Shown here: positions 392 to 16,504 of the stretch, piece after piece
Layout: every line of letters starts with the position of its first letter
Numbering within the stretch: position 1 is the stretch's first letter
From: Candidatus Colwellia aromaticivorans
Lineage (GTDB): Bacteria; Pseudomonadota; Gammaproteobacteria; Enterobacterales; Alteromonadaceae
Direction of reading: 5' to 3'
Length of the DNA stretch: 64,000 nt
Assembly: GCF_003333305.1 (NCBI RefSeq)
Contig: NZ_QOLD01000053.1
Location: forward strand, 1-64,000
Notes under the pieces: generated by a model
What the model saw: the letters and a program-made list of their open reading frames with translations, nothing else
Told to the model about the DNA's origin: nothing
The model's database searches: none
Translations under genes and position numbers: made by a program

Positions 392-1045
392 TTACCAATC
401 AAGCCCTTTTTGTGCCTTAACGCCAGCTTTGAAAGCATGTTTAATAGGCTGAACTTCTGATACCGTATCAGCCAATTCAATTAATCGACGATGACAGGCA
501 CGCCCTGTAATTAACACATGTTGCATTTTAGGTCGATTATTCAACGCCTCAATAATATCGTCTAGTTCAATATAGCCATACTTAACCATGTAGGTCATTT
601 CATCGAGTAAAACAATATCAAGGGATTCGTCGCTCAACATTTCCTTACTTTTTTGCCATGCAACTTTCGCCGCTGTTAAATCAGTTTCGGTGCTTTGCGT
701 TTCCCAAGTAAAGCCCGTGCCCATTACATGATGCTGAACAGCGAACTGCTTTAAAATATTCATTTCGCCGCACTCCCATTTACTACCTTTAATAAACTGA
801 ACAACACCTGCTTTTTGTCCATGACCAATAGCGCGTAATACCGTACCAAAGCCAGAAGTACTTTTGCCCTTACCGTTGCCAGTTATTACAACAAGAACAC
901 CACGTTCTTCTGTCGCTTGGGCAATTTTTTCATCAACTTTTGCTTTAATTTTCTTTTGGCGGTCGATATGTTTTTGTTCTTTAGCTGCTGCTTTTTCAAC
1001 TTCTATTTCGGCTTCTTTATTTACATCACTCATATTATTGCTCAT
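392..1045 (-). CDS. cobO: Cob(I)yrinic acid a,c-diamide adenosyltransferase
   Basis: Transfers the 5'-deoxyadenosyl group of ATP to the cobalt of cob(I)yrinate diamide or related corrinoids in the cytoplasm (BtuR/CobO/CobA family). The 217-residue length fits the family. The P-loop GNGKGKSTSGFG lies near residues 57-68, followed by VVQFIKG and the family DEMTYMVKYGY segment. The first 45 residues are charged and K/E-rich, as in other CobO proteins. It is the last gene of the riboswitch-led unit A and starts about 30 bp after the DUF2149 stop. A second in-frame ATG lies four codons in. Confidence 0.95.
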   Translation of the reverse strand: MSNNMSDVNKEAEIEVEKAAAKEQKHIDRQKKIKAKVDEKIAQATEERGVLVVITGNGKGKSTSGFGTVLRAIGHGQKAGVVQFIKGSKWECGEMNILKQFAVQHHVMGTGFTWETQSTETDLTAAKVAWQKSKEMLSDESLDIVLLDEMTYMVKYGYIELDDIIEALNNRPKMQHVLITGRACHRRLIELADTVSEVQPIKHAFKAGVKAQKGLDW

Positions 1046-1074: not shown

Positions 1075-1422
1075 TTATTTATTACTGATCAGGATTAACT
1101 TACCCGTTTCAGGATCTCGATAAACTTGTCCCATCGACTGATAACCTTCTTGGCTTTTCAGTTTGTTTTTTAACGCTTCAGGTGTTGAAGTTAATTCTTT
1201 ACCGACAGAATCGACGGGTTGTATTTTTGCCGAAGACTCTTTACTTGTTGAAGACTCTAGCTGATTCACCCCGAAGTGTTGTTCTAATTCTGGACTTAGT
1301 GCCACAAGCGCGGCAATCAAGCCACAGGCAAAAACAAGCATGATATCAATCAGGTTCGCTAATGGACCTAAAGGTTCTTGCTCTTGACTATCAAATTGAC
1401 TACTGCGCCATTCGTTACTCAT
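1075..1422 (-). CDS. DUF2149 family protein, ExbD/TolR-like single-pass membrane protein
   Basis: About 115 residues. After a short polar cytoplasmic segment comes PLANLIDIMLVFACGLIAAL, one transmembrane helix with an embedded Asp. This mirrors the ExbD/TolR pattern (PLxDxxLVLLIIFM), where the Asp carries protons. A Gln/Ser-rich, probably periplasmic tail follows. The ATG at 1420-1422 is preferred over an upstream GTG because AAGG sits about 8 nt before it. The gene lies directly behind the ExbB/MotA-type gene, so the two probably form a channel pair working with the anchored CobN. The Pfam name is recalled; the partner role is inferred from order and the TM Asp. Confidence 0.75.
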   Translation of the reverse strand: MSNEWRSSQFDSQEQEPLGPLANLIDIMLVFACGLIAALVALSPELEQHFGVNQLESSTSKESSAKIQPVDSVGKELTSTPEALKNKLKSQEGYQSMGQVYRDPETGKLILISNK

Positions 1423-1432
1423 TTTATTCACC

Positions 1433-1939
1433 TTATGCGCTTTTTGCTACAACAGTTTCAAGAGATGTTTTTGAATCGATTGTTGATAAGGCATTATGTA
1501 CTTCATCATCTAAACGTTGCATGGCGTTATCATACCAACGTCTGCGCATTCGCCCTAAAATAAAACCAATAACACCGGCAAGTAAGCCAATAATCGTGGT
1601 ATCAAAGGCGACGGTCATTGCGGTCGTTAAAATACTAATATCACCGGTACCTAATGCCGATAAGCCAGGGCCTAATGGGATTAATGTTCCCATTAAACCT
1701 AGCATTGGCGCTATGCGCGTAATAAAGTCTGCGCGCTCGATGCGTTTTTTCCCTTGTTCAATCAATTGGCGCCTTTTATTTGCCGCGACTAAAGCTGGAA
1801 TAACAAAGAAGCGCTCGCCGATAGCGATGCCTAATTCATAAATAGCCAAGGCGGTAAAAAACAATAATCCCCACACTACTGGTTGTAATAACCAAGAGGT
1901 AATTAAATGCATTAACTCTAAAGAAAAACCATATAACAT
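1433..1939 (-). CDS. MotA/TolQ/ExbB-type proton channel family protein
   Basis: About 168 residues with three predicted membrane segments. The conserved family core RIAPMLGLMGTLIPLGPGL is followed by a long hydrophobic pair and the basic loop GRMRRRWYD. Such proteins pair with ExbD/TolR/MotB-like subunits to couple the proton or sodium gradient to work across the envelope. The ATG at 1937-1939 is chosen because GGAG lies 8 nt upstream and the start is 1 bp past the cobN stop. A longer frame to 1987 would overlap cobN. Tight spacing to cobN and the DUF2149 gene argues for a three-part complex (inference). Confidence 0.85.
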   Translation of the reverse strand: MLYGFSLELMHLITSWLLQPVVWGLLFFTALAIYELGIAIGERFFVIPALVAANKRRQLIEQGKKRIERADFITRIAPMLGLMGTLIPLGPGLSALGTGDISILTTAMTVAFDTTIIGLLAGVIGFILGRMRRRWYDNAMQRLDDEVHNALSTIDSKTSLETVVAKSA

Positions 1940-1940
1940 A

Positions 1941-4900
1941 TTAAGACTCCAACTTATGTATTTGACGACGAGCACGAAGATAGCCACTGAGCACCAATAG
2001 AAAGATCACAATAACCAAGCCAAACAATAAATAATCATTTTCCAATAACTGTTCATCCTTGCTTTCATCATAATTTTCCGATGACTTTGCATCTTCAGCA
2101 TTATTCTCTACCGCTTGATTATCTTCCTTTATTTGTGAAGACGCTGAAGGTTCAGCATTTTCCCGTTCGATTGCTGTGCTAATTTCTTGAAGATGCTGCA
2201 CACCAGAGCCGATATCACCAACAGGCGTATGATTCGCCGCGGCTAAAACCTCTGCTAATTGGCTATTTAACTGTGCTGACAACATGGGTTTAATAAAATC
2301 ATAAATAGGATGATTAGCATGGGTATGTCCGCTGCCTGGAATGCCATTTTCAATAATGTTTTTGGCAAACTTTTCAGCAAGCTGTGTTTGCGTTTCTTGT
2401 GTTGCTTGCCAAAAGCCCTTTTCGATGGCAACTAGCATCACAGCTAGGATATTACTTTGCACATGAATATTATGCTTTTCTTGTAAAAACTCATCTAAGC
2501 CTATCTCTAAGCTGTCATCTATATAAATAGCCTTTAAATCTTCCCATACCCAAGAACGAATAATTTCAGGGCTAGTCGCTTGCCAGCCCCAAAGGTTTTC
2601 AATGAACTCACTGCCCATAGTTCTTGCGCCTGCGTAACCTTGTCTCATTAATGGTTGTATCCACTGTCTATTAAGAAAACGCCCGCGTAATTCTGACAAC
2701 AAGGCCGTTTGCAGCGGATCAATAGAGAGTTGTTTATTATTAGCGTGAGAAATAACAAAACTGTTTGGTTGCTCACCTGCAATGGTTTCTATTGCTAGAT
2801 TTAAGCCGCCCAAATAGTCATAAGCATCGTTGTTATCGATTAAGCCATATAGGTTACTCGCTCGCCCTAGATACGTATTATTCACATGTGCCAGTTGTTG
2901 GCGAAATAACGTCTGAACATTGCTGCCCATTTCCACACCAGCAGAGGGTGCACCGTAAGCGTGACTCATGCGTTTAATATAAGCTTCACCTAATTGTTTG
3001 CGTTCTTGCCATGCACCAGAACGTTCAGCTAAGCGGTTAATACCCGCGCCATAAGCGCCCGGTGCTGTACCAAAAATACGGTAACTTGCCTGACGACCTA
3101 GTAATTCTGGGCTTATATTGCCATTTATGCGTAATAAATTTTGTGCTTCGAGTAGCCAATTACTGGCAACAAAGTTACTCGCTAAGCTCTCATTAAACTC
3201 ATGCTTTTGCTGGTCAAGCATGTGGGCAACAGGTTGTAATGCTGCTTGTAATGCACTGATTAATGCGGGGTGGTCGCGTTCGATTATTTTTTTACTTGCC
3301 GCGAGTGCCAGTAATACAGAACGGTCGAGCCAAGCGAGCTGTTGAGCATATAAATCTCTGAATAAGCCTGATGTGGTAAAAACAATATCACGGCGTTCAT
3401 TACGCTTATTGTCGAGCGGCATAAGTTCTAGAGACTTTAAGATGCCACGACGATTCCACACTGGCTTAACGCCGAGCATATCCATACCAAAAGCAATCAT
3501 AGCGCCTTCGTCACGAACCGCATCAGATGCCCATAAAATAACGGCTTCTTTGTGAGTTTTATCAACAACTGGATTTTTCTCTCTAGCTTTATTTGCCAAT
3601 TGTTGGCCCGTTGAAAAGCCTAACTGTGAAGGTATCAGGCTACCATCAAGTGCATAAAAATTACGGCCCGTTGGTAAAGCATCAGGAGTTCTTATGGGAT
3701 CATTGCCTTTACCTGGCGCAACAAAGCCACCATTTAAGGCATTGAGTAGTGCTGACATTTCACTTTTTGGAGACTTAATCAGATTTGCTTTTATTTGCTT
3801 GCGCTGAATTTTATCAAAGTCTAATTCGCCTTTTTCAATGGACTCCATCATTATTTCGATAGCATCTTGTTGCCAACCTTTACCATAAACATGTAACCCT
3901 AATGGCATGAAGTCTTCTTGTAGCTTTGTTAAGTAATGCCCTACTTCATGGAGTAAAAAGTCGTCATCAACTTCACCAAAGCCAATACCACGGACCTGTA
4001 GCTCTTCATCCATACTGGCAACAAGTTCGTCGGTTAAATTAAGTACTTCTATTTTATGACGCAAAGCTTTAATCGCTTTTTTCTTAGTATCTTGATTCGA
4101 CGCTGCTTCTGCACTTTCAATTAACTGACGTAGTTGCAATAAGCCGTCATATAACTCAGTTGTTGCTAGCGGTGGCGTTAAGTGGTCTAACATAACGCCA
4201 ATACCGCGACGTTTCGCTTGAATGCCTTCACCAACACCATCAACAATATAAGGATAAATACTCGGAATACTTTCGATAACAAGTGACGGATAATCGCTGG
4301 CAGACAAGCCAACCGCACGTTTAGGTAAAAACTCATAAGTTGAATGTCGACCTAAATGCACAATGGCATTGGCTTTAAAAACATCGCGTAAATGATAATA
4401 GAAAGCTAAATGTTGATGTGGTGGTGGGAAGGTCATATTGGCATGTAATAGTTCTTCATTTAGCTCCCAACCTCTTGGTGGTCGCGGCCCTAAAAAGATA
4501 TTGCCAAATTGAACACCCGGTAGCAAAATTTCATTATTCCATACCATGGTTTTTCCAGGAACTTTGCCCCAGCCACGAATACCTTCAATTTGCATGGTAA
4601 TTAACGCCTTTTTGAGCGCTTCAGCTTCTTGCCATTGCTCTGCTGTAATAGGGCTACTTTCAATATTTAAGCTGATTAAACCTCTATATTTATGGGTCAG
4701 TTGCTCAAGAAGGTCTAATGCACGCACTCGACCTTTATGGCGAATACCGTCTAGCGCATGGTGTAAATCAACCGAGGTGCTCTCAACATTTTCAAGTAAA
4801 GCTTCTAATACCGATTTACGTTCAAGTGCAGAAAGGCTGGCAAGTTCTTCTTGACCATTTTCAAGAAGATATAGCTTAACTCTCGCATGTAAATACCCTA

Positions 4901-6566
4901 ATGGGCCTTCAACCATTTCAGCTTTCACAATATCGGGTAAGGTTTCAAAGTAGCCTTGATACTGGCTTACCGACATAGTATTAATCAGACCCGACATTTT
5001 ATTTAAAGCACCAGCATCTTGCGGTAAGTTAACCGCTTTTAGCTGTAATAAGTCGAGCAATTCATCGGCAGATTTTGGGAAGTCAGCTTCTGGGCCAAGA
5101 TCATAACCCTCCACTTTTAGTCGCTGTAATATGTGCCACAATGACTGTTGTACATCTAAGTTATCTGCGCCGATGTTATGTCGTCCTGGAGGATGATTGT
5201 AATAAACAATCGCCACTTTCTTGGTCGAGTTATCGCTAGTTTTTAGTGCTAACCATGCATTCACCCGAGCTTGTAAACGCTCAATCTCTGTTGTTAACAC
5301 TTGGCTAATAGATAAACTAGCACCTGTTAGTGGATCTAATTTAGCGCTTGAAGCCAGCGCTAAAACGTGGGGCTGAGAAACACCTTGTAGTTCAGGCATT
5401 GCCACGCGGTAGTGAACACTGTCACTGGGTAATCCTGTCGGAGAAAGTTCATATTCTAATACGCTAAGTTCAGTAACCCTGATACCTTTAAATACAGGAA
5501 TGTTCAATACCTTAAGTTTTTCAGTGACCGCTTCTCGTCCTTCCCCGCCACCAATAACAAAGTCTTGTAATGCTATTAGCGCAAATGGCTGTGTTGTCTC
5601 TAAAGTGAGCAGTTGTTCTATCGCTTGTTCGCTAGGTTTTCCCCAGCCCGCAAGTACTGAAACACACAACCATTGGCTTTCGCATAATTGCTGATGCAAT
5701 TGCCATTGCCCCGGTTGATCGCCGGTATCATGATCAATCAAAAAGATCACTGGCTTAGCTTGATTGTCTTTGATGTTTTTCTTGAGTTCGTCAACGTTAA
5801 TAAGTTGCTCTTGCCAATAAAAACGTATCGGTTGAAGAGGTAAAACATTCGCTGCCTGTGCTAGCAATTTTTTCCGGTTAGCCGCTGAGGATGGCGTGGA
5901 AATCTGTGTTAACCAACCAAACAGTTGCCCAAGGTTTTCTTTGCCTCTGTTTTGCCAGTAAGCACGCGCTTGCAACCAGTGAGCGAAATGTGGCCATTCT
6001 TTTTGTTTGGCTGTTAAAGCGCTTAAGTAGTCATTTTTATCTAATGAAGCCATCAAGTGTTGTAATTGTTTTTTAGATAATTTGGTAATACTCCCGCCTT
6101 GCGCATCTTGATGCAACGCCATTAAACGTCGATCGGTATTGAGCATTAAGCGGGTTTGCTGGGGTTGATACTGTAACGAGAGTAAACGTTCAACTGACTC
6201 ACCAAAAACACCGGCAATAACTAACGCTTGATGTTGATTAATCAGTTGCTGTATTTGTTGATTGGTTAACTGATTCAATTGGCTGACACTACGAATGGTA
6301 ATGCTACTTTCTGATGATGGGCCGTTACTTAAGTTTTGCATTGCTAAAAATTGATGCGCGCCTGCAACAATACTTGCTGCAGAACGATCTGAAACCAATG
6401 CCAGTATTTTAAGTTCTGCGGCACTAAGCGTTAGGCTACTGATAGTTGCAACAAAACATAAAGCCATCGGAAAGTAATTTTTGTCTATTCCATTCCTCAC
6501 AGTGTTTTTAAAAAAATATTGTATTACTTGTTTGTAAAAAATGAAGCTGAACATCATAACTCTCAT
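1941..6566 (-). CDS. cobN: CobN/BchH-type cobaltochelatase large subunit, predicted periplasmic and membrane-anchored
   Basis: A large chelatase subunit of up to 1541 residues; classical cytoplasmic CobN is roughly 1250-1300. The CobN/BchH core is clear, for example HLGRHSTYEFLPKR (around residue 735), YPYIVDGVGEGIQAKRR and DEGAMIAFGMDMLG. The N-terminus contains the hydrophobic, signal-like MALCFVATISSLTLSAAE. The C-terminus has an acidic linker of about 60 residues, then LLFGLVIVIFLLVLSGYL and a basic tail RARRQIHK. By the positive-inside rule the main domain lies in the periplasm. The true start is uncertain: Met 1, 4, 5 and 34 (6467) are candidates and none has a strong SD. AAA+ and VWA partner subunits are absent from the window. 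Confidence 0.85.
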   Translation of the reverse strand: MRVMMFSFIFYKQVIQYFFKNTVRNGIDKNYFPMALCFVATISSLTLSAAELKILALVSDRSAASIVAGAHQFLAMQNLSNGPSSESSITIRSVSQLNQLTNQQIQQLINQHQALVIAGVFGESVERLLSLQYQPQQTRLMLNTDRRLMALHQDAQGGSITKLSKKQLQHLMASLDKNDYLSALTAKQKEWPHFAHWLQARAYWQNRGKENLGQLFGWLTQISTPSSAANRKKLLAQAANVLPLQPIRFYWQEQLINVDELKKNIKDNQAKPVIFLIDHDTGDQPGQWQLHQQLCESQWLCVSVLAGWGKPSEQAIEQLLTLETTQPFALIALQDFVIGGGEGREAVTEKLKVLNIPVFKGIRVTELSVLEYELSPTGLPSDSVHYRVAMPELQGVSQPHVLALASSAKLDPLTGASLSISQVLTTEIERLQARVNAWLALKTSDNSTKKVAIVYYNHPPGRHNIGADNLDVQQSLWHILQRLKVEGYDLGPEADFPKSADELLDLLQLKAVNLPQDAGALNKMSGLINTMSVSQYQGYFETLPDIVKAEMVEGPLGYLHARVKLYLLENGQEELASLSALERKSVLEALLENVESTSVDLHHALDGIRHKGRVRALDLLEQLTHKYRGLISLNIESSPITAEQWQEAEALKKALITMQIEGIRGWGKVPGKTMVWNNEILLPGVQFGNIFLGPRPPRGWELNEELLHANMTFPPPHQHLAFYYHLRDVFKANAIVHLGRHSTYEFLPKRAVGLSASDYPSLVIESIPSIYPYIVDGVGEGIQAKRRGIGVMLDHLTPPLATTELYDGLLQLRQLIESAEAASNQDTKKKAIKALRHKIEVLNLTDELVASMDEELQVRGIGFGEVDDDFLLHEVGHYLTKLQEDFMPLGLHVYGKGWQQDAIEIMMESIEKGELDFDKIQRKQIKANLIKSPKSEMSALLNALNGGFVAPGKGNDPIRTPDALPTGRNFYALDGSLIPSQLGFSTGQQLANKAREKNPVVDKTHKEAVILWASDAVRDEGAMIAFGMDMLGVKPVWNRRGILKSLELMPLDNKRNERRDIVFTTSGLFRDLYAQQLAWLDRSVLLALAASKKIIERDHPALISALQAALQPVAHMLDQQKHEFNESLASNFVASNWLLEAQNLLRINGNISPELLGRQASYRIFGTAPGAYGAGINRLAERSGAWQERKQLGEAYIKRMSHAYGAPSAGVEMGSNVQTLFRQQLAHVNNTYLGRASNLYGLIDNNDAYDYLGGLNLAIETIAGEQPNSFVISHANNKQLSIDPLQTALLSELRGRFLNRQWIQPLMRQGYAGARTMGSEFIENLWGWQATSPEIIRSWVWEDLKAIYIDDSLEIGLDEFLQEKHNIHVQSNILAVMLVAIEKGFWQATQETQTQLAEKFAKNIIENGIPGSGHTHANHPIYDFIKPMLSAQLNSQLAEVLAAANHTPVGDIGSGVQHLQEISTAIERENAEPSASSQIKEDNQAVENNAEDAKSSENYDESKDEQLLENDYLLFGLVIVIFLLVLSGYLRARRQIHKLES

Positions 6567-6611: not shown

Positions 6612-8012
6612 CTAAAAGCAGCGTGTTTTATTAAAAATACGTAATGCTAAACTAGGATTACTTGGCAGGTACCAGTGCATATATGAGGCAAGAATATTGT
6701 TATGTAGATAGACAAACTCGCCTGCGCGTTCACTTGGGTGATGCGTAGTTTGGCAACTCGGTTCAAGATCAATTTCTGCTGAGGAATAATGAAAACTATG
6801 CCCTCGCATTATATTGCCCTCAATATTTACCCCTTCACTTTGATCAAATGAAGGTAAGTCGACCCACTGTGAGCCTATTGAAGCGAGCTTTTTCTGCATA
6901 ATAGCTTTACCCGGCATCAGTCCAAGCATGGAAAACTGTTGACCCGACAAATCGGTAAGTTGATCAAGTAAGTACAACATGCCCCCACATTCAGCAATGA
7001 TAGGTTTGTTACTTGAAGAAAAATGTCTCACATCATTTAGAAAAGTCACATTGTTCATTAACTTCTCAGCATATAATTCCGGATAGCCACCAGGAATATA
7101 CAGAACATCACCTTCAGGTAAATTCGCATCTGTAAGTGCAGAGCAATAAATAAGTTCTGCTCCTGCTTGTTCTAAAAAGGCGATATTAGCTGCATAAATA
7201 AAACTAAAAGCATTGTCTCGAACAATAATGACGCGAGTACCCTTTAATGCTTGATGAACAACCCTTTGTTCGTTTTCTAGTGTAAAGAATTCTACTTTTT
7301 CTGGTAAATCTGTAAGGCCAGTATTCGCTATATGGCTCGAAGCTTGATCAAGTTGGGCATCAATATCAGCAAGTTCTTGTGCTTGTACTAAACCCAAGTG
7401 GCGCTCTGGTAAGGTAATGGTCTCGTCTCTTGGAATACGCCCATGAAAGCGAATGTCATCTGACAAGTGACTACTCAACATTTCTGCATGACGATCTGAA
7501 TTGACTCGATTACCAATCACGCCATAAAAAGGTAGGTCTTCACGAAACTTGACCAAACCAAATACCACCGCCGCAAACGTTTGTGCCATGGCCTTAGCAT
7601 CAATAACACCTAATACCGGTATATTAAAATATTGCGCTAAATCTGCACTACTCGGCGTCCCATCGAATAAGCCCATAACACCTTCAATCAAAATAAGATC
7701 CGATTCCATCGCCGCGCGATAAAGTAATTCTCGACAACCTTGCTCACCCACTAGCCACAAATCTAATTGATAAACTAATTCACCACTGGCTTTGCGTAAA
7801 ATCATAGGGTCAATAAAGTCTGGCCCCACTTTAAAAACGGTCACTTTACGACCTTGATTACGGTGATAACGTGCAAGTGCAGCTGTTACAGTCGTTTTAC
7901 CCGAGCCGGAGTGCGGAGCAGCAATAATTAATGCTGAGCACATAGCACCACTACCTACTTGGTGTTCTGCTTTATCTTGAAACGGTAATTTTTTATTATT
8001 CGATAATGCCAT
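6612..8012 (-). CDS. cbiA: Cobyrinate a,c-diamide synthase
   Basis: Glutamine- and ATP-dependent amidation of the a and c carboxylates of cobyrinate (CobB/CbiA). The 466-residue protein starts with a dethiobiotin-synthetase-like domain carrying the P-loop APHSGSGKTTVTAAL (about 32-46). It ends with a class I amidotransferase domain, nucleophile Cys in PIIAECGGMLYL and the His region near HSFHYSS. It lies between the riboswitch-controlled membrane protein gene (46 bp upstream) and cobN. Residues 1-23 precede the usual family start, so Met24 is an alternative. A GAGA about 8 nt before the first ATG supports the longer form. Confidence 0.95.
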   Translation of the reverse strand: MALSNNKKLPFQDKAEHQVGSGAMCSALIIAAPHSGSGKTTVTAALARYHRNQGRKVTVFKVGPDFIDPMILRKASGELVYQLDLWLVGEQGCRELLYRAAMESDLILIEGVMGLFDGTPSSADLAQYFNIPVLGVIDAKAMAQTFAAVVFGLVKFREDLPFYGVIGNRVNSDRHAEMLSSHLSDDIRFHGRIPRDETITLPERHLGLVQAQELADIDAQLDQASSHIANTGLTDLPEKVEFFTLENEQRVVHQALKGTRVIIVRDNAFSFIYAANIAFLEQAGAELIYCSALTDANLPEGDVLYIPGGYPELYAEKLMNNVTFLNDVRHFSSSNKPIIAECGGMLYLLDQLTDLSGQQFSMLGLMPGKAIMQKKLASIGSQWVDLPSFDQSEGVNIEGNIMRGHSFHYSSAEIDLEPSCQTTHHPSERAGEFVYLHNNILASYMHWYLPSNPSLALRIFNKTRCF

Positions 8013-8058: not shown

Positions 8059-8670
8059 CTAAAGTTGCTTATTCATGTAGATATTAGCATTTACCAAATT
8101 TTCCTTGAAAAAATGACTCAGGGTAAAATCAATGACAATAGCGGAAACTACATAGAAAATAGGATTCGAAATAGATTTAAAATAATATTTATCAATACGA
8201 GTTGCATATTCCGACCACGACAAATCAGGGAACTTACCTGATAACGTGTAATAACTGCCATTTGAAATGAAGAATGCAATTGAACTAGCAATAAACAAGG
8301 CTAATGCCACCTTAACAATATTTACTTGCCAAGCGTTTTGCTGCCAATTTGGTTTAATATAAAAGCCGGCAGTAAACATAGCCGCATAACTGAATACCAA
8401 TGCAGGATAAGATGTCGTTATACAATCGCCAAACTGACCGCGATAATATGATGAAGCGAGATCTATAGTGACCGATAAAATATAGAAAAACCAAAACATT
8501 TTAATGTTACGTAAGTACATTCCTGCTAAGAAAAAAATAGCAATTGATGCACTGGGTAAGTGATTCAAACTGGCAAAGTGATGTGTGCGTGTGGCGAGCA
8601 TGAGCAAGGTTAATATTGCAAATACCGCAATGAGCAAGCTAATAGGTAATTTTTGGTTGATTGATTTCAT
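8059..8670 (-). CDS. Riboswitch-controlled integral membrane protein, predicted B12/cobalt-related transporter
   Basis: 203 residues with five or six hydrophobic segments. A conserved-looking block ATRTHHFASLNHLPSASIA is followed by FFLAGMYL. Proteins of this appearance are found in B12 clusters of Pseudomonas and relatives and have been loosely annotated as cobalamin or cobalt transport components; I know no experimental function. It is the first gene after a cobalamin riboswitch and precedes cbiA and cobN, so its expression should rise when B12 is scarce. Cobalt or corrinoid import is the natural guess (inference). No ATPase motif is present, so it would be a secondary transporter or a substrate-binding membrane component. 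Confidence 0.7.
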   Translation of the reverse strand: MKSINQKLPISLLIAVFAILTLLMLATRTHHFASLNHLPSASIAIFFLAGMYLRNIKMFWFFYILSVTIDLASSYYRGQFGDCITTSYPALVFSYAAMFTAGFYIKPNWQQNAWQVNIVKVALALFIASSIAFFISNGSYYTLSGKFPDLSWSEYATRIDKYYFKSISNPIFYVVSAIVIDFTLSHFFKENLVNANIYMNKQL

Positions 8671-8877
8671 TACGATCCCGTAGTCTAAAATACATAGAAT
8701 TTAACGGTGTAGGAAATCAAAGTTAGTAAACGGTGTTAGTCGCGTAATTAGCTATTAACGCGATGAAAATGAGCTATTCATACATTAAGTAATCGCGCAG
8801 CTATAACTCAGGCCGTATACTGTTCTCTGAATCACCGCCCACCGCAGTTGTCGAGTAAAACCTATAAATAGGTTTGA

Positions 8878-9060
8878 TTAGGCCGGTCTCCGGACTCCTG
8901 ATCATTGCATTTGCAACACCTTCCCATATGTTCACTATTGTAATGTGCTAAATAGTGATTCAATACAGTGGTTTTGTTGCTGCTCACAGTTACCGTTGCG
9001 GGGGCAGTACTGGTATTTCACCAGTTTCACGTTTCATCTTCACTAATTGTATTTTGTCTT
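8878..9060 (-). promoter_or_regulatory. Cobalamin riboswitch 1 (unit A leader)
   Basis: Read on the minus strand it has the core ACTGCCCCCGCAACGGTAA (about 8987-9005), an upstream CTGGTGAAATACCAG stem, the GGGAAGGTGTTGCAAATGCA segment and the 3' B12 box AGTCCGGAGACCGGCC (8881-8896). It sits about 200 nt before the membrane protein start. A hairpin AAACCTATTTATAGGTTT follows directly and may be the expression platform. The rest of the 8671-9285 gap holds no gene that I can support. I found no second riboswitch facing the plus-strand operon. Confidence 0.93.
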
Positions 9061-9285
9061 AAATTTATAAAACATAAATACACTTGAAGACACCTAAATC
9101 AGCGCAGATAATACGCCATGAATCGTAGTTATTCAACAATTAACACGGTTTATAGCCACACCTGAGGGCGAAAAAACAAAATATTTCCCATAAATAATAT
9201 TTGCATTGAACCTAGGTAGTGATTTGGTTATTCTCTTCGTCCGCATAAATGATTATGACAACTGCATGATTGGTATTTAAATCAA

Positions 9286-12079: not shown

Positions 12080-13929
12080 CTAAAATGTATAGGTCGCTGC
12101 TAGCTGATAATTAATACCATCAGTTAGGTAATGTTCAGCAACAGTATAATCTCGATCAAAAAGATTATTGACTTTACCTGACACAGACAACTTATCTGAT
12201 AGCTGGTAGCTTAATGAAATATCAGTTAACAATACTGAATTTAACGTTACAGCGCTATATTTGTTATCTTTACTTTCACCACGGTAATCTAAAACAAGAT
12301 TCGCTGTTAGTGCATCAACTTGATAACCTAAAGTATAAATTGCTGTCACTTTCGGACGACGTAGCAACTCCTTACCCGTTGATTTGTCTTCGGTCTCAAC
12401 ATAGCCAGCGGCTACTAAATGAGAAAAGTCGCCCGTTTGCAATGCGAAAGTGAAATCAACACCTTGCGCTGTTGCATTATCAATATTCTCTGGGTGCCAA
12501 ACTCCTGAAGCATCGGGTGCCCAGTTAATTAAATTATCAATTTCAGAATCATAAATACTAACTTCTAGAATACCGTTATTAAAGTGGTTACGTATAAGTA
12601 TTTCAGTGCTTTTAACTTCCTCAGGCATAAGATCTTTATTACCACCGCCTGGCCAGTATAAATCGTTAAACGTTGGCGCTTTAAAGCCAGTACCTTGGCT
12701 TATGCTTAATAACCAGTCGGCATTTGGTTGATAGCCAGCAGAAAGGTTATAGGTTACCTCATTATCTAACCCTTGAATGTTATCTTGGCGCAATGCACCT
12801 TCAAACAGAAATGAATTCATTTGATGACGAGATTGAATGAAAACAGCACGGGCTGTGCGCTTATCTTTTACATACACTGAACTTGTATTTGAAACACGCT
12901 CTTCGTACCAATCAAAACCACCAACAAAGCTAGTATTTTCACTTAACTCACATACTGACCTAGGAAACCAAATTGATCACGTTTCGTGGTAATTTCATTC
13001 ACAACTTTAGGATCGGAGTCACCTTTAAAAGTCCCTCCTTCATCTTGTGATTTAGCAACAAACGTTTCAACTAAAATGTTACCTGAATTATATACTGCCT
13101 CTAATTTTACCGAGTAGTTTTCATGCTCATTTTCATCAGAGCCACCGTATTTATTATCATACTGTGCCCCCCCCTTTTCATAACGAGAAATTAAATTGAG
13201 TGAGTATTGCTCAGTTAATTTACTTTGACCATTAAGACTAAAAGACTGACGATCATAACCGTCTTTATCTTCTTGGCCTGGATAATCAGTAGTGTTAAAA
13301 CCGTCAGTTTCTTCTAAAGCGCCTGCGATAGTTAATGAGTTCGATTCATTACCTAAACCAATAGCAGCTTCTGTTTTCCAGTAACCGTTGCTACCGAGAC
13401 CCACAGTTACAAAGCCTTCTCCCGATTGAAGCTTTTTAGTGAAAATTTGAATCACACCACCAATAGCGTCCGACCCCCAAAGTGCACCACGAGGGCCTTT
13501 AACCACTTCAATGCGATCAATTAAACCAACAGACATTGAAGAAAAGCTGGTTGTTCCTAGTGTTGCAGAGCCAACACGCACACCATCAACCAAGATAAGC
13601 GTATGATTACCGTTAGTGCCGCGCATAAATACCGAAGCAGATTGACCTGCGCCACCTAGGTTAGCAACGGTCACACCTGCTACGGTATTGAGTAGTTCTG
13701 TAATGTTTTGTGGCTGAATCGCTTCTATTTCAGCTTGACCAATAACTTGTGTCGCTGAAAGCGATAAAAATAAATCTTGTTGAGAACGGTTAGCTGTTAC
13801 AACAATTTGTTCCAAATTAGCGTCTTCTGCACTTTCATTTGAATTAGCCACCGCACTTGATGCAGCAGAAAGCAATGCTGAAGCTACAGCAATTTGAGTT
13901 AATGTTTTATTAAATAGTTTAGTTTTCAT
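12080..13929 (-). pseudogene. btuB: TonB-dependent cobalamin receptor with a frameshift
   Basis: The two parts together encode about 616 residues, the normal BtuB length. The first part (13929 to 12943) has a signal peptide, a TonB-box-like segment near LEQIVVTANR, the plug (VDGVRVGSATLG, VKGPRGALWGSDAIGG) and the first barrel strands. It ends at TAA 12943-12945. The second part continues in another frame (ELSENTSFVGGFDWYEE through YTVAEHYLTDG and the terminal aromatic AATYTF). Restoring one base near 12943-12955 fuses them. No slippery heptamer or homopolymer is present, so this is a true indel or a sequencing error. Start ATG 13927-13929 has GAGG 4 nt upstream. Confidence 0.9.
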
Positions 13930-13942
13930 GTTACCTCGCTCT

Positions 13943-13961
13943 ATGATGCCCTCCGCATCAT
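13943..13961 (-). promoter_or_regulatory. Leader hairpin with GGAGG loop upstream of btuB
   Basis: Minus-strand ATGATGC-GGAGG-GCATCAT, a perfect 7-bp stem with a Shine-Dalgarno-like loop, 13 nt before the btuB start. It lies between the riboswitch and the coding region and may be part of the expression platform. Confidence 0.5.
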
Positions 13962-14004
13962 GTTGATCACTTAGTTGTTTATATTTAGCTAAATGATAAT
14001 TAAG

Positions 14005-14150
14005 TAAGCACAAGATGTCGGACTTAAACTCGTTAATACATCGACGAACTATTACCGTTGCGGGGGCAGTATCTAATTTCCATAGATTTCCCTCGTTGCC
14101 TACCATAATAAAAGTGGAAGATTTTCCACTCGTTGGTTTATCTAATACGT
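14005..14150 (-). promoter_or_regulatory. Cobalamin riboswitch 2 (btuB leader)
   Basis: Minus strand: GAGGGAAATC, then TACTGCCCCCGCAACGGTAA (about 14051-14070), then a diverged B12 box AGTCCGACATCTTGTGC (14008-14024). It begins right after the btuF stop, so the btuB message may start in this 220-bp gap or come from read-through of unit B. The core is strong; the B12 box is weaker than in the other three copies. Confidence 0.85.
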
Positions 14151-14978
14151 TTATCGAAACGCATCAAGTTTGTCACACATATCTTCTATACCGTCTAACA
14201 TGCGGGTGCTAAATCTATGCGTTAAATCTGCATTAATTCGAATAAAGCGATTATGCTTCACTGCGGGAATTTCTGGCCACTTATGCCAATCAATGACGGG
14301 TAGTTCTGTATTCGATTTTTGAACAGGAAAAATTATAACTTCAGGTTGCGCTACAATGACATTTTCAATACCAATTTGCGGGTAAGCTGTAGGATTCTCT
14401 GCAAAAACATTCTGCCCTTGGCAAACTTCAATTAATTGATTAATCAAAGTCCCTTTATTTATCGTGCGCATCGGCTCAGGCCATAGTTGATAAAAAACTT
14501 TCATTGGCGCTATGCTGACATGTTGTTGACGTAATTTTTTAAGTCGTTGTAGGTAATCATTAGCCACTGATTCCGCTTGTATTTCATGCCCTGTTAATTT
14601 ACCTAACTCTCGTAGTTCTTTCGCAACATCCTCAATTTTATGTGGCTGACTGTAAATGATGTTCAACCCCATTTTTTCCATTTGTTCAATGTCAGAAACT
14701 TTATTACCTGATTGCCAAACAATAACGATATCGGGCTTTAGTTCGAGTATTTTTTCTATTTGAATACCGTGATATCCACCGATTCGAGGAATGTTCAATG
14801 CCGCGGCAGGATAGTCAGAATGAGATACCGTACCAACAATTTTATTACCTGCACCTATGTCAAACAACATCTCAACTATATGCGGTGCAAGCGCGACAAT
14901 TCGCTGCTCTTTTGCCGTACTTATAAATGATGAGAGTAGTAAACTAACAATAAAAAATTTTGTGTAAATCATCTTCAT
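14151..14978 (-). CDS. btuF: Periplasmic cobalamin-binding protein of the BtuCDF transporter
   Basis: 275 residues with a cleavable signal peptide ([17 protein letters not shown]) followed by [19 protein letters not shown], the usual opening of class III binding proteins. [11 protein letters not shown] and [18 protein letters not shown] are further family blocks. It delivers B12 to BtuCD. The start overlaps the cobQ stop by 4 nt (ATGA). It is the last gene of unit B, separated from its ABC partners by cobT-S-U-Q. Confidence 0.92.
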
Positions 14979-16504
14979 GTAATTCCCTCCTTATAGGGAG
15001 TTGTCGTGTTAGTCCTAACGCCCGCTTGCAAAATTTTTTCAATATCATCCATATGTAAATGTTGCTCACAAGTATCGGCTAAACGATTCAATTGAACTTC
15101 TCGGTGTTGATCAATATTAATCACCGATTGAACGCCATGATCTTTTTTAACCCACTGCAATACAGCGCTTGTTACCGCACCACGGTCAAACAAACCATGT
15201 AAGTAGGTTGCTACAATTTGGTTATCTTCTGAAATGAAGCCATCAATACCAGAAGATCCCGCCGATAGTTCACTTATCAAGGGGTTATTAAGCGCAGTAC
15301 CATGCGAATGACCACAATGAATCTCGTAACCAGAAACTTCACACTGCTGGCCCGCTAACGTAAATGTGCCAGAGACCTGAGTAAGGGTTTTTGATGTAGT
15401 TAATGTTGTCGTAAAATCAGCTAGGTCCAGTCCAGAAATAACCCTTTCTTCATTGTCTGCAAAGTTTGATTCTATAGCATGAGGGTCAAATATTTTACGG
15501 CCTAACATTTGAAGACCTCCGCAAATACCAAGTACCTTACCGCCATATCTCAAATGGCGATTAATATCTTCTTGCCAACCTTGCGCTTTTAAAAAGGCTA
15601 AATCAGAAATTACGTTCTTACTACCTGGGAGTATAATTAAATCGCAATTATCAATACGCTCACCCATTTTTACGTAACGTAAATCTATCTCAGAATTCAG
15701 TCTTAATGGGTCAAAATCGGTGTGATTACTAATATGTGGCAACAAAGGAACAGCAATTATAATTTTGCTTGAACTGACTTTGTTATCAATAGCAATGGCA
15801 TCTTCAGCATCAAGTGCTAAATCGTGCAAATAAGGTAAAACACCTAAAACAGGTTTTCCGGTACGTTCTTCAAGCCAAGTTAAGCCCGACTCTAATAATT
15901 TAATATCACCACGAAAGCGATTAATAATAAAACCTTTAACCCGGGATTGCTCAGACTGAGACAACAACTCAAGTGTACCCACTAGGTGAGCGAATACCCC
16001 ACCACGGTCGATATCAGCAACGATAATAACCGGACAATCCACTTTTTCAGCATACCCCATATTGGCAATATCATGTGCCCGTAAGTTAATTTCCGCTGGA
16101 CTCCCAGCGCCTTCAACCATAAGTACATCAAACTCTTTCGCTAGCCGATAGTGAGACTCAACTACCGCGTTCATTGCCACCTTTTTATAATCGTGATAAC
16201 TACTCGCGTCCATATTTGAAAGTGCCTTACCATGTACAATAACTTGAGCACCGGTATCACTATTTGGTTTTAATAGAATAGGATTAAAATCAACACGTGG
16301 TGCAATATTGGCAGCAATAGCTTGTAATGCTTGTGCTCGCCCTATCTCGCCACCATCTTCTGTCACGGCGCTATTTAATGCCATATTTTGTGGTTTAAAT
16401 GGGGCAACTTTAAAACCGCGATTAACAAAAACGCGACAAAGCCCAGCAACAATTGTACTTTTTCCTGCGTCAGAGGTGGTACCCTGTATCATCAAGGTTT
16501 TCAT
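14975..16504 (-). CDS. cobQ: Cobyric acid synthase
   Basis: Glutamine-dependent amidation of four side chains (b, d, e, g) of adenosylcobyrinate a,c-diamide. The 509-residue length is typical. The N-terminal ATPase-like domain has [20 protein letters not shown] and [13 protein letters not shown]. The C-terminal amidotransferase domain has its Cys in [14 protein letters not shown] and the His in ATYLHGLFD. Stop and start overlaps of 4 nt with cobU and btuF indicate translational coupling within unit B. Confidence 0.97.

Follow-up and report, generated by a model that had tools for sequence, protein, structure and literature searches.

A B12-controlled clade of anchored CobN proteins encoded with a MotA/ExbB-DUF2149 channel pair, a possible proton-driven corrin chelatase

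We analyzed a stretch of 64,000 nucleotides from Candidatus Colwellia aromaticivorans (contig NZ_QOLD01000053.1, positions 1 to 64,000; "the window" in what follows), in which a gene for a membrane-anchored CobN-like protein is followed by genes for a MotA/TolQ/ExbB-type channel protein and a DUF2149 protein. This CobN belongs to a distinct clade, named type B here, which is accompanied by the same channel pair and stands under B12 control; no AAA+/VWA motor was found for it, the marker of corrin ring synthesis is missing from most of its hosts while CobB and CobQ are kept, and its active site carries corrin-chelatase-like residues. The reading that we favor, at a probability a little below 40%, is that type B is a proton-driven periplasmic chelatase that may insert or exchange the metal of salvaged corrins, for which we infer export, proton coupling, reaction direction and substrate.

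The three-gene anatomy has been published for hmuYRSTUV (PMC10434189, PMC10100974, PMC13227078, PMC12583661; statements on papers cited by PMC number refer, here and below, to portions of their text), whose HmuS strips heme of its iron, a reaction that depends on NADH. The same three genes are present in PA1922-1925 of Pseudomonas (PMC4542158, PMC9431628), which in P. aeruginosa are under zinc control (PMC4542158). An earlier note on this DNA, made from the letters alone, had described the system; its architecture is in print, whereas the B12-controlled type B clade is new. Two papers in the literature searched name both DUF2149 and CobN, and no suggestion that a proton channel drives CobN was found in that literature, which did not extend to most subscription journals or to the 2003 paper in which BtuS was reportedly proposed (Rodionov et al.). 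BtuS is described as a third CobN-related kind for metalloporphyrin salvage, with experiments on heme iron in Bacteroides fragilis (PMC6460266). For the CobN of Geobacter (Trichlorobacter) lovleyi pSZ77, a lack of CobS/CobT and a link to exbB-exbD-tonB and transport are reported, and its role is left open there (PMC3403914).

Gene order, clade and B12 control

The operon of the window lies on the minus strand in the order cobalamin riboswitch, BtuM-like gene, cobB, cobN, MotA/ExbB gene, DUF2149 gene and cobO. Its features, with three inside CobN, are listed below (TM, transmembrane).

8864..9112, minus strand: cobalamin riboswitch at the operon head (RF00174, 94.5 bits, E 3e-22)
8059..8670, minus strand: BtuM-like small membrane protein with a Cys in GDCITTSYP, corrinoid transporter candidate (phmmer to PDB 8c7p)
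6612..8012, minus strand: cobB/cbiA, cobyrinic or hydrogenobyrinic acid a,c-diamide synthase (NF002204, 433.7 bits, cut-off 254)
1941..6566, minus strand: type B anchored cobN, 1541 amino acids (PF02514, E 1.4e-228)
4323..4358, minus strand: CobN active-site motif HLGRHSTYEFLP, residues 737-748 (His741 and Arg740 each 82/82)
2805..2837, minus strand: second cleft motif of CobN, DNNDAYDYLGG, residues 1244-1254 (Asp1247 at the HmuS His1209 site)
1977..2033, minus strand: C-terminal TM helix of CobN, residues 1512-1530 (sequence; hydropathy across the clade)
1433..1939, minus strand: MotA/TolQ/ExbB channel protein, ATG start (PF01618, E 2e-9)
1075..1431, minus strand: DUF2149 protein, a single TM helix that contains Asp29, followed by a small portion (PF09919, E 1.3e-12)
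392..1045, minus strand: cobO/btuR, corrinoid adenosyltransferase (PF02572, E 4.7e-62)

The earlier note had the three-gene set right, and the span it gave omitted the riboswitch (9112-8864), the BtuM-like gene, cobB and cobO. Its gaps of 1 and about 10 bp after cobN, followed by the MotA/TolQ/ExbB and DUF2149 genes, agree with Pfam and with our reading of the starts: the mechanical open reading frame (ORF) of the channel gene opens at GTG 1987, ATG 1939 is also a possible start and would leave a one-base gap after the cobN stop, and DUF2149 may begin at ATG 1422 (10 bases past the previous stop) or at GTG 1431 (one base). The first gene is a BtuM candidate by our own assignment; its product has no Pfam or NCBIfam match and aligns with PDB 8c7p, 'Cobalamin ABC transporter', at E 2.6e-21 (phmmer). 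The function of BtuM is described in PMC6072759. A chimeric artefact in the window cobN was ruled out by the same length and layout in relatives from many genomes.

A scan with six type B queries against named genomes gave 236 relatives, the best 80 of which, type B only, were analyzed; with five loci from the order of the window they make 85 loci (84 distinct, L019 and L034 being the same stretch). Among those best 80 of 236, type B occurs in five phyla (Pseudomonadota, Campylobacterota, Nitrospirota, Nitrospinota and Myxococcota). The MotA/ExbB gene comes next after cobN at 85/85 loci, and DUF2149 then follows at all 83 whose contig continues, the other two ending 178 and 481 bases past cobN. 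The constant company of CobN and channel pair that the earlier note looked for is therefore real, and a chance association is excluded. The order of the window, with 247 genomes examined, has 18 with soluble CobN (scores 1268-1316), six with a second anchored kind, type Z (about 1000), and six with type B; types B and Z occur together in one genome, and soluble CobN occurs with type Z in another. DUF2149 is found nearby (within about 1.3 kb of the match) for 12/12 anchored cobN genes versus 0/18 soluble ones. G091 has CobN fragments only, G019 a weak DUF2149 match without CobN, and the CobN match in G195 is spurious. Among 14 control genomes DUF2149 was matched only in Methanosarcina acetivorans, an archaeon without an outer membrane, which has a CobN match as well.

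As in the ExbB-ExbD, TolQ-TolR and MotA-MotB channels, one member of the pair is a MotA/TolQ/ExbB protein (PF01618), whose GLMGTLIPLGPGL and AFDTT motifs hardly vary across an alignment of 80 sequences. The DUF2149 protein has an IDIMLV motif and an Asp29 inside its TM helix that is identical in 78/78 aligned sequences (L016-L020 were excluded from both alignments). It belongs to a separate Pfam family and matches one ExbD over an 11-column motif alone (hhalign probability 6%, E 0.006); its predicted structure is one long helix plus a small hairpin (predicted local distance difference test, pLDDT, 66; predicted template modeling score 0.29).

The Rfam search for riboswitches covered 24 of the 80 survey loci, the window and L016-L020; a home-made riboswitch pattern, which caught part of the Rfam hits, was set aside. 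The B12 control and corrinoid context read by the earlier note were both borne out, the first by the riboswitch upstream of the window operon and by a same-strand upstream B12 riboswitch at 26/30 type B loci (0/6 for type Z), the second by the surrounding B12 genes. The loci without such an element are L065 (one on the opposite strand), L081, L106 and L016. The riboswitch lies at most about 500 bases from cobN in 14/24 loci; genes intervene in L075, L086, L087, L092, L093, L095, the window, L019 and L020, and about 1.9 kb separates the two in L105. The scores in L017 (33.5 bits) and L073 (37.5) are near the gathering score of 31.5.

A phylogeny was built with every second type B row (42), leaving out the Mtb CobN fragment and the type Z copy of G275. 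Type B, type Z and soluble CobN each form a clade with a Shimodaira-Hasegawa-like approximate likelihood ratio (SH-aLRT) support of 100 in this comparison of anchored and soluble CobN, which the earlier note had proposed, and type B is a distinct clade. HmuS pairs with a copy from Pseudomaricurvus; HmuS and ChlH, both partial sequences, have long branches and their placement is unsure. That copy (L134, P. alkylphenolicus, the genome of L071) is CobN-like, carries the HmuS motif LSLDHVYEFMGG, and comes from a host that also has type B.

Directly after DUF2149, 3/85 loci carry genes for CbiZ (PF01955) and a nitrilase-family hydrolase (PF00795) (L081:15218-17452, L066:6795-8953, L074:6158-8448), both with signal-peptide-like starts. 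By sequence they are a possible periplasmic cobamide-trimming pair.

Anatomy and active site of type B CobN

The CobN of the window has a Sec-signal-like stretch close to its N-terminus, MALCFVATISSLTLSAAE, and an acidic linker, and ends in the TM helix and the basic tail RARRQIHKLES (all by eye and hydropathy), which is the layout that the earlier note had described. Residue counts refer to 82 of 86 type B sequences (81 distinct because of L019 and L034); L061, L066, L090 and L097 were left out as they have no ORF above 1350 amino acids, cobN being split in two ORFs in L061 and L066. By hydropathy, a hydrophobic N-terminus is present in 77/82 type B and 0/11 soluble sequences, and a C-terminal TM helix in 74/82 and 0/11; a second N-terminal measure gave 58/82 and 1/11. 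The termini of the window protein and of the clade thus support, as far as sequence tells, the periplasmic anchoring proposed earlier: type B CobN is probably exported, periplasmic and anchored to the inner membrane. A Cys pair at 295 and 301, each position kept in 77/82 type B sequences and not in type Z or soluble rows, would suit an oxidising compartment.

His741 is the counterpart of His538, which is essential in HmuS, and all 82 type B, 13 type Z and 11 soluble sequences have it; together with two Glu of the chelatase motifs it is found in 82/82 type B. The HmuS site HFG(T/A)HG reads HLGRHS in type B, with the His kept in 82/82. The residue before the catalytic His separates the groups: Arg740 is a type B signature (82/82), soluble CobN has Lys there (11/11, likewise the structures 7c6o and 9uk9), and Thr takes this place in HmuS, in ChlH and in type Z (13/13). 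The site of HmuS His1209 is occupied by Asp in all type B (82/82) and soluble (11/11) sequences and in 12/13 of type Z. Judged by these residues, the active site of type B is nearer to that of cobalt CobN than to HmuS. The closest solved structure to the whole protein is HmuS (9d26, E 2.3e-109), and its best NCBIfam CobN score is 617.7 against a cut-off of 1619. An AlphaFold model of residues 310-1480 from six alignment rows had a mean pLDDT of 49 and was left unused.

HmuS/HmuU/HmuV (PDB 9D26) and type B share a CobN/ChlH-type anchored body, the MotA/ExbB and DUF2149 proteins, the catalytic His and the absence of an ATP motor from the operon. Unlike HmuS, type B forms its own clade, has a B12 riboswitch instead of iron control and keeps the company of cobB, cobO and cobQ; compared with the hmuYRST operon, the window has neither hmuY nor hmuT, and its cobN and channel gene are direct neighbors. 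Where HmuS has LSLDHxxEFMGG with His1209, the window reads NNDAYDYLGG, with Asp in 82/82 sequences. In one pairwise alignment His254 of HmuS falls near Glu342 of the window protein, beside a gap, and the Met-rich insertion of 285 residues (638-923) faces 86 of its residues; Met79, which belongs to the same heme site as His254, lay outside the alignable part. An assignment of type B to the HmuS-family heme de-chelatases was rejected because His1209 is replaced by Asp and because the Met79/His254 site and the Met-rich insertion are not matched.

With the CobN of CobNST (7C6O, 9UK9) type B has in common PF02514, the catalytic His/Glu, a basic residue before the His, the Asp of the second motif and the B12 genes around it; it differs in being exported and anchored, to judge from its termini, and in having no CobS or ChlI/ChlD-type partner found (CobT was not searched). 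A plain aerobic cobaltochelatase was rejected on the missing ring marker (45/49 genomes, see below) and on the motor that was not found. PA1922-PA1925 have the same anchored CobN and channel pair, and type Z is taken as their kin, although P. aeruginosa itself was not aligned; type Z differs from type B in its separate clade, HxGTHG motif and the 0/6 loci with a B12 riboswitch. The T. lovleyi pSZ77 cluster shares B12 riboswitches, MotA/ExbB and DUF2149 with type B, but has a HIGTHG motif, the pair before cobN and a host reported to make cobalamin; it carries its own ExbB-ExbD-TonB directly after cobN, besides the pair.

Corrin genes of the hosts and the proposed role

From the 80 survey loci 50 were hand-picked for isolates and long contigs, and 49 genomes were searched (L070 was left out). 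The ring marker CbiC is present in 4/49 and absent in 45/49. CobB (E<=1e-40) was found in 40/49, including 36 of the 45 ring-less genomes, and CobQ in 49/49, a figure for which there is no order-wide background count. A soluble CobN with its AAA+/VWA partner occurs in one of the 49, and an additional CobN, type Z by score, in nine, eight of which are in the tree. Strong TIGR02442 matches (E<=4e-98) appeared, among 59 genomes, only in that soluble-CobN genome and in 5/5 soluble-CobN controls.

The whole genome of the window has one CobN, keeps the amidating enzymes CobB and CobQ, and gave four tetrapyrrole-methylase matches, one of them under the cut-off, and no CbiC. Four such methylases are too few for the corrin ring route, and the genome seems unable to make a corrin ring. 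The earlier note saw no AAA+/VWA partner genes, and this holds genome-wide: no match to TIGR02442 or TIGR01650/CobS was found at E<=1e-10 (CobT was not searched). In the order of the window, 7 of 221 ring-less genomes have CobB (E<1e-70), and type B is present in 4 of these 7 versus 1 of the 214 others (Fisher p 1.8e-6, uncorrected for kinship); two of the four belong to one genus and one is the genome of the window, which was chosen for having type B. The link between CobB and type B is strong, not absolute. Salvage at the cobyrinate level is a recognised pathway class (PMC8123684).

In the reading that we favor, BtuB would deliver an unfinished, metal-free or wrongly metallated corrin to the periplasm, where the MotA/ExbB-DUF2149 pair would replace the AAA+/VWA motor of cytosolic CobN, and proton flow through the pair would move the CobN body and bring about metal insertion or exchange, with cobalt going in. 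The cobalt corrin would cross the inner membrane via the BtuM-like protein or BtuCDF, to be amidated by CobB, adenosylated by CobO and finished by CobQ and later enzymes. Bacteria without their own corrin ring could thereby use incomplete, metal-free or wrongly metallated corrins. The CbiZ and amidase-family genes at 3/85 loci suggest that whole cobamides may be trimmed in the periplasm too, and such trimming would account for why CobB and CobQ are required. Proton-driven insertion or exchange, as the earlier note had it, fits most of the findings, and its catalysis, direction and coupling stay at the level of a proposal.

Two ring-containing holders, Zhongshania marina (G256) and Z. aliphaticivorans (G264), offer the strongest natural indication that type B may be able to insert cobalt. 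Both have one cluster with CobG, CobH, CobI, CobJ, CobK, CobM and CbiD (in G256 with a CbiE/CbiT fusion), and CobB too. CobG, which marks the oxygen-dependent pathway with late cobalt insertion, scores 269.3 bits in G264 (cut-off 234.8) and 202.5 bits in G256, where the retrieved sequence ends inside its ORF. In both, type B is the sole CobN match, TIGR02442 matches do not go beyond 1.3e-13 in strength, and CobS does not reach the cut-off.

Several observations weigh against this reading. The same Zhongshania species are expected to have their hydrogenobyrinate in the cytosol, yet their sole CobN has a signal peptide, for which the data offer no explanation. The clusters of G023 and G259 are of the CbiD type and include a CbiK- or CbiX-like gene, which means early cobalt insertion, a step that can do without type B in these two; in Azotobacter (G289) a soluble CobN and its TIGR02442 partner occur alongside type B, and the gene content of these three implies that type B must have a use beyond de novo synthesis. 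CobB is missing in 9/45 ring-less type B genomes, and three ring-less genomes of the order (G003, G073, G120), apparent cobyrinate salvagers of another kind, have CobB and no CobN match. The absences in the 49 genomes depend on assembly quality, for which completeness figures are not given, and a CobS homologue lies just under the cut-off in G281 and G295 (31 genomes searched). Asp1247 is shared with type Z and hence not specific for corrins, and the likeness of DUF2149 to ExbD ends with the 11-column motif. HmuS, the sole experimentally known member and the closest structure, works in the opposite way, by removal, and the activity, localisation and interactions proposed for type B are predictions. 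Finally, a type B CobN on a Marinobacter sp. M3C plasmid (L135:5977-10179), between cobB and cobO, has a signal peptide, no C-terminal TM helix and no linker, and no channel pair was found beside it (in the fetched 16 kb; this record was not among the hits when plasmids were searched by tblastn with the channel protein). The earlier note would have given up its reading on genomes in which anchored CobN never goes with the pair: the pair is there at 85/85 loci, and the Marinobacter gene touches on this condition as a type B cobN without the pair, though also without an anchor.

Among the alternatives, type B might work as a de-chelatase that strips cobalt or a wrong metal from periplasmic corrinoids and yields cobalt or free corrin, which we consider somewhat unlikely. 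It draws on HmuS, the nearest solved relative, membrane-bound and with the same gene neighbors (PMC12583661), on the secreted-looking CbiZ and nitrilase-family genes, as if corrinoids were dismantled outside the cytosol, and on related anchored CobN genes beside cobalt-transporter or hydrogenase genes; however, an Asp occupies the site of the HmuS ligand His1209, and in ring-less hosts, in which no other cobalt-inserting enzyme was found, stripping would spoil the substrate of CobB, CobO and CobQ. For the latter reason metal removal alone is less likely, and exchange would include removal. Energised handling without metal chemistry, in which the channel moves CobN as a corrin-binding arm, off BtuB or onto BtuM/BtuF, appears unlikely to us: the invariant catalytic His and two Glu (82/82) would be needless for mere binding, although HmuS binds a non-substrate heme at a head/neck site (PMC12583661) and BtuB-, BtuF-, BtuCD- or BtuM-like neighbors recur (within 6 kb, BtuB-like ORFs at 20/84 type B loci and BtuM-like genes at 11/84; 60 loci have full 6-kb flanks).

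It is quite improbable that the pair energises a TonB-dependent receptor and that CobN is a separate enzyme. HmuU/HmuV are assigned to TonB energisation, as driving HmuR (PMC10100974, PMC12583661), HmuV has been presented as a diagnostic mark for heme transport (PMC10100974), and TonB-receptor-like genes lie near type Z at 6/6 loci (BLAST to the btuB of the window). The pair accompanies CobN at 85/85 loci against the 20/84 with a BtuB-like receptor, so that TonB receptors are not the constant partner of type B and its pair, and in T. lovleyi the pair coexists with an ExbB-ExbD-TonB set. Our data speak against the TonB assignment of HmuU/HmuV and against HmuV as a mark of heme transport, because DUF2149 is equally constant beside a B12-controlled CobN and because of the T. 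lovleyi set and the match in Methanosarcina acetivorans. An ordinary cobaltochelatase with its AAA+/VWA partner elsewhere in the genome, for which the near-cut-off CobS homologues could speak, is highly improbable, since the genome of the window has no TIGR02442/CobS match (CobT was not searched) and the signal peptide and TM helix would place the CobN body across the membrane from the ATPase.

A wider proposal, which we offer with more doubt than confidence, is that class I tetrapyrrole chelatases come in two energised forms, a cytosolic one driven by an AAA+/VWA ATPase and a periplasmic one driven by a proton channel, so that the channel would power the chelatase (HmuS, zinc, nickel, B12) and not TonB, and type B would be the cobalt-inserting branch with periplasmic salvage of metal-free or unamidated corrins. 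A proton motor would then take on a task hitherto credited to an ATPase ring, and the assignment of HmuU/HmuV to TonB in the literature would need to change. If true, widespread, often marine bacteria (236 relatives in one scan) would have a B12 salvage route from cobalt-free or amide-free corrins, and the role of anchored CobN-like proteins outside heme becomes directly testable.

Other features of the loci

A Runella slithyformis plasmid (L139) carries a TonB receptor, a urease-accessory protein, MotA/ExbB, DUF2149 and CobN within a hydrogenase maturation (hyp) cluster, an arrangement that suggests a nickel version of the system. In Cupriavidus sp. EM10 (L137:6212-15398) an anchored-looking CobN with the motif HVGRHGTLE, beside which no channel pair was seen, immediately precedes a gene that we take to be G3E-GTPase-like and a soluble cobN.

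Elsewhere in the window cbiB, threonine-phosphate decarboxylase, btuB, btuF, cobQ (14975-16504), cobU, cobS, cobT, btuC, btuD and bluB were named, for the most part, from their translations; cbiB, cobQ and the aminotransferase (the last at superfamily level only) have the backing of family searches, and the other names stay translation readings. The genome has a second full-length CobQ match at G000:C93:26942-28411. The btuB-like receptor is present in the assembly as two ORFs (12080-12877 and 12943-14106, minus strand), by a true break or a sequencing error, and a weaker B12 riboswitch match (35.6 bits, 13996-14138) overlaps the first of the two.

PepSY_TM-like membrane proteins are encoded at 9/85 type B loci (L088:8362-9930, L093:8301-9818, L039, L042, L043, L064, L070, L092 and L101), called by PF03929 in L088 and L093 and by a home-made profile in the other seven. 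PepSY_TM-related proteins are known as ferrisiderophore reductases, and it is conceivable that this neighbor is a corrinoid reductase.

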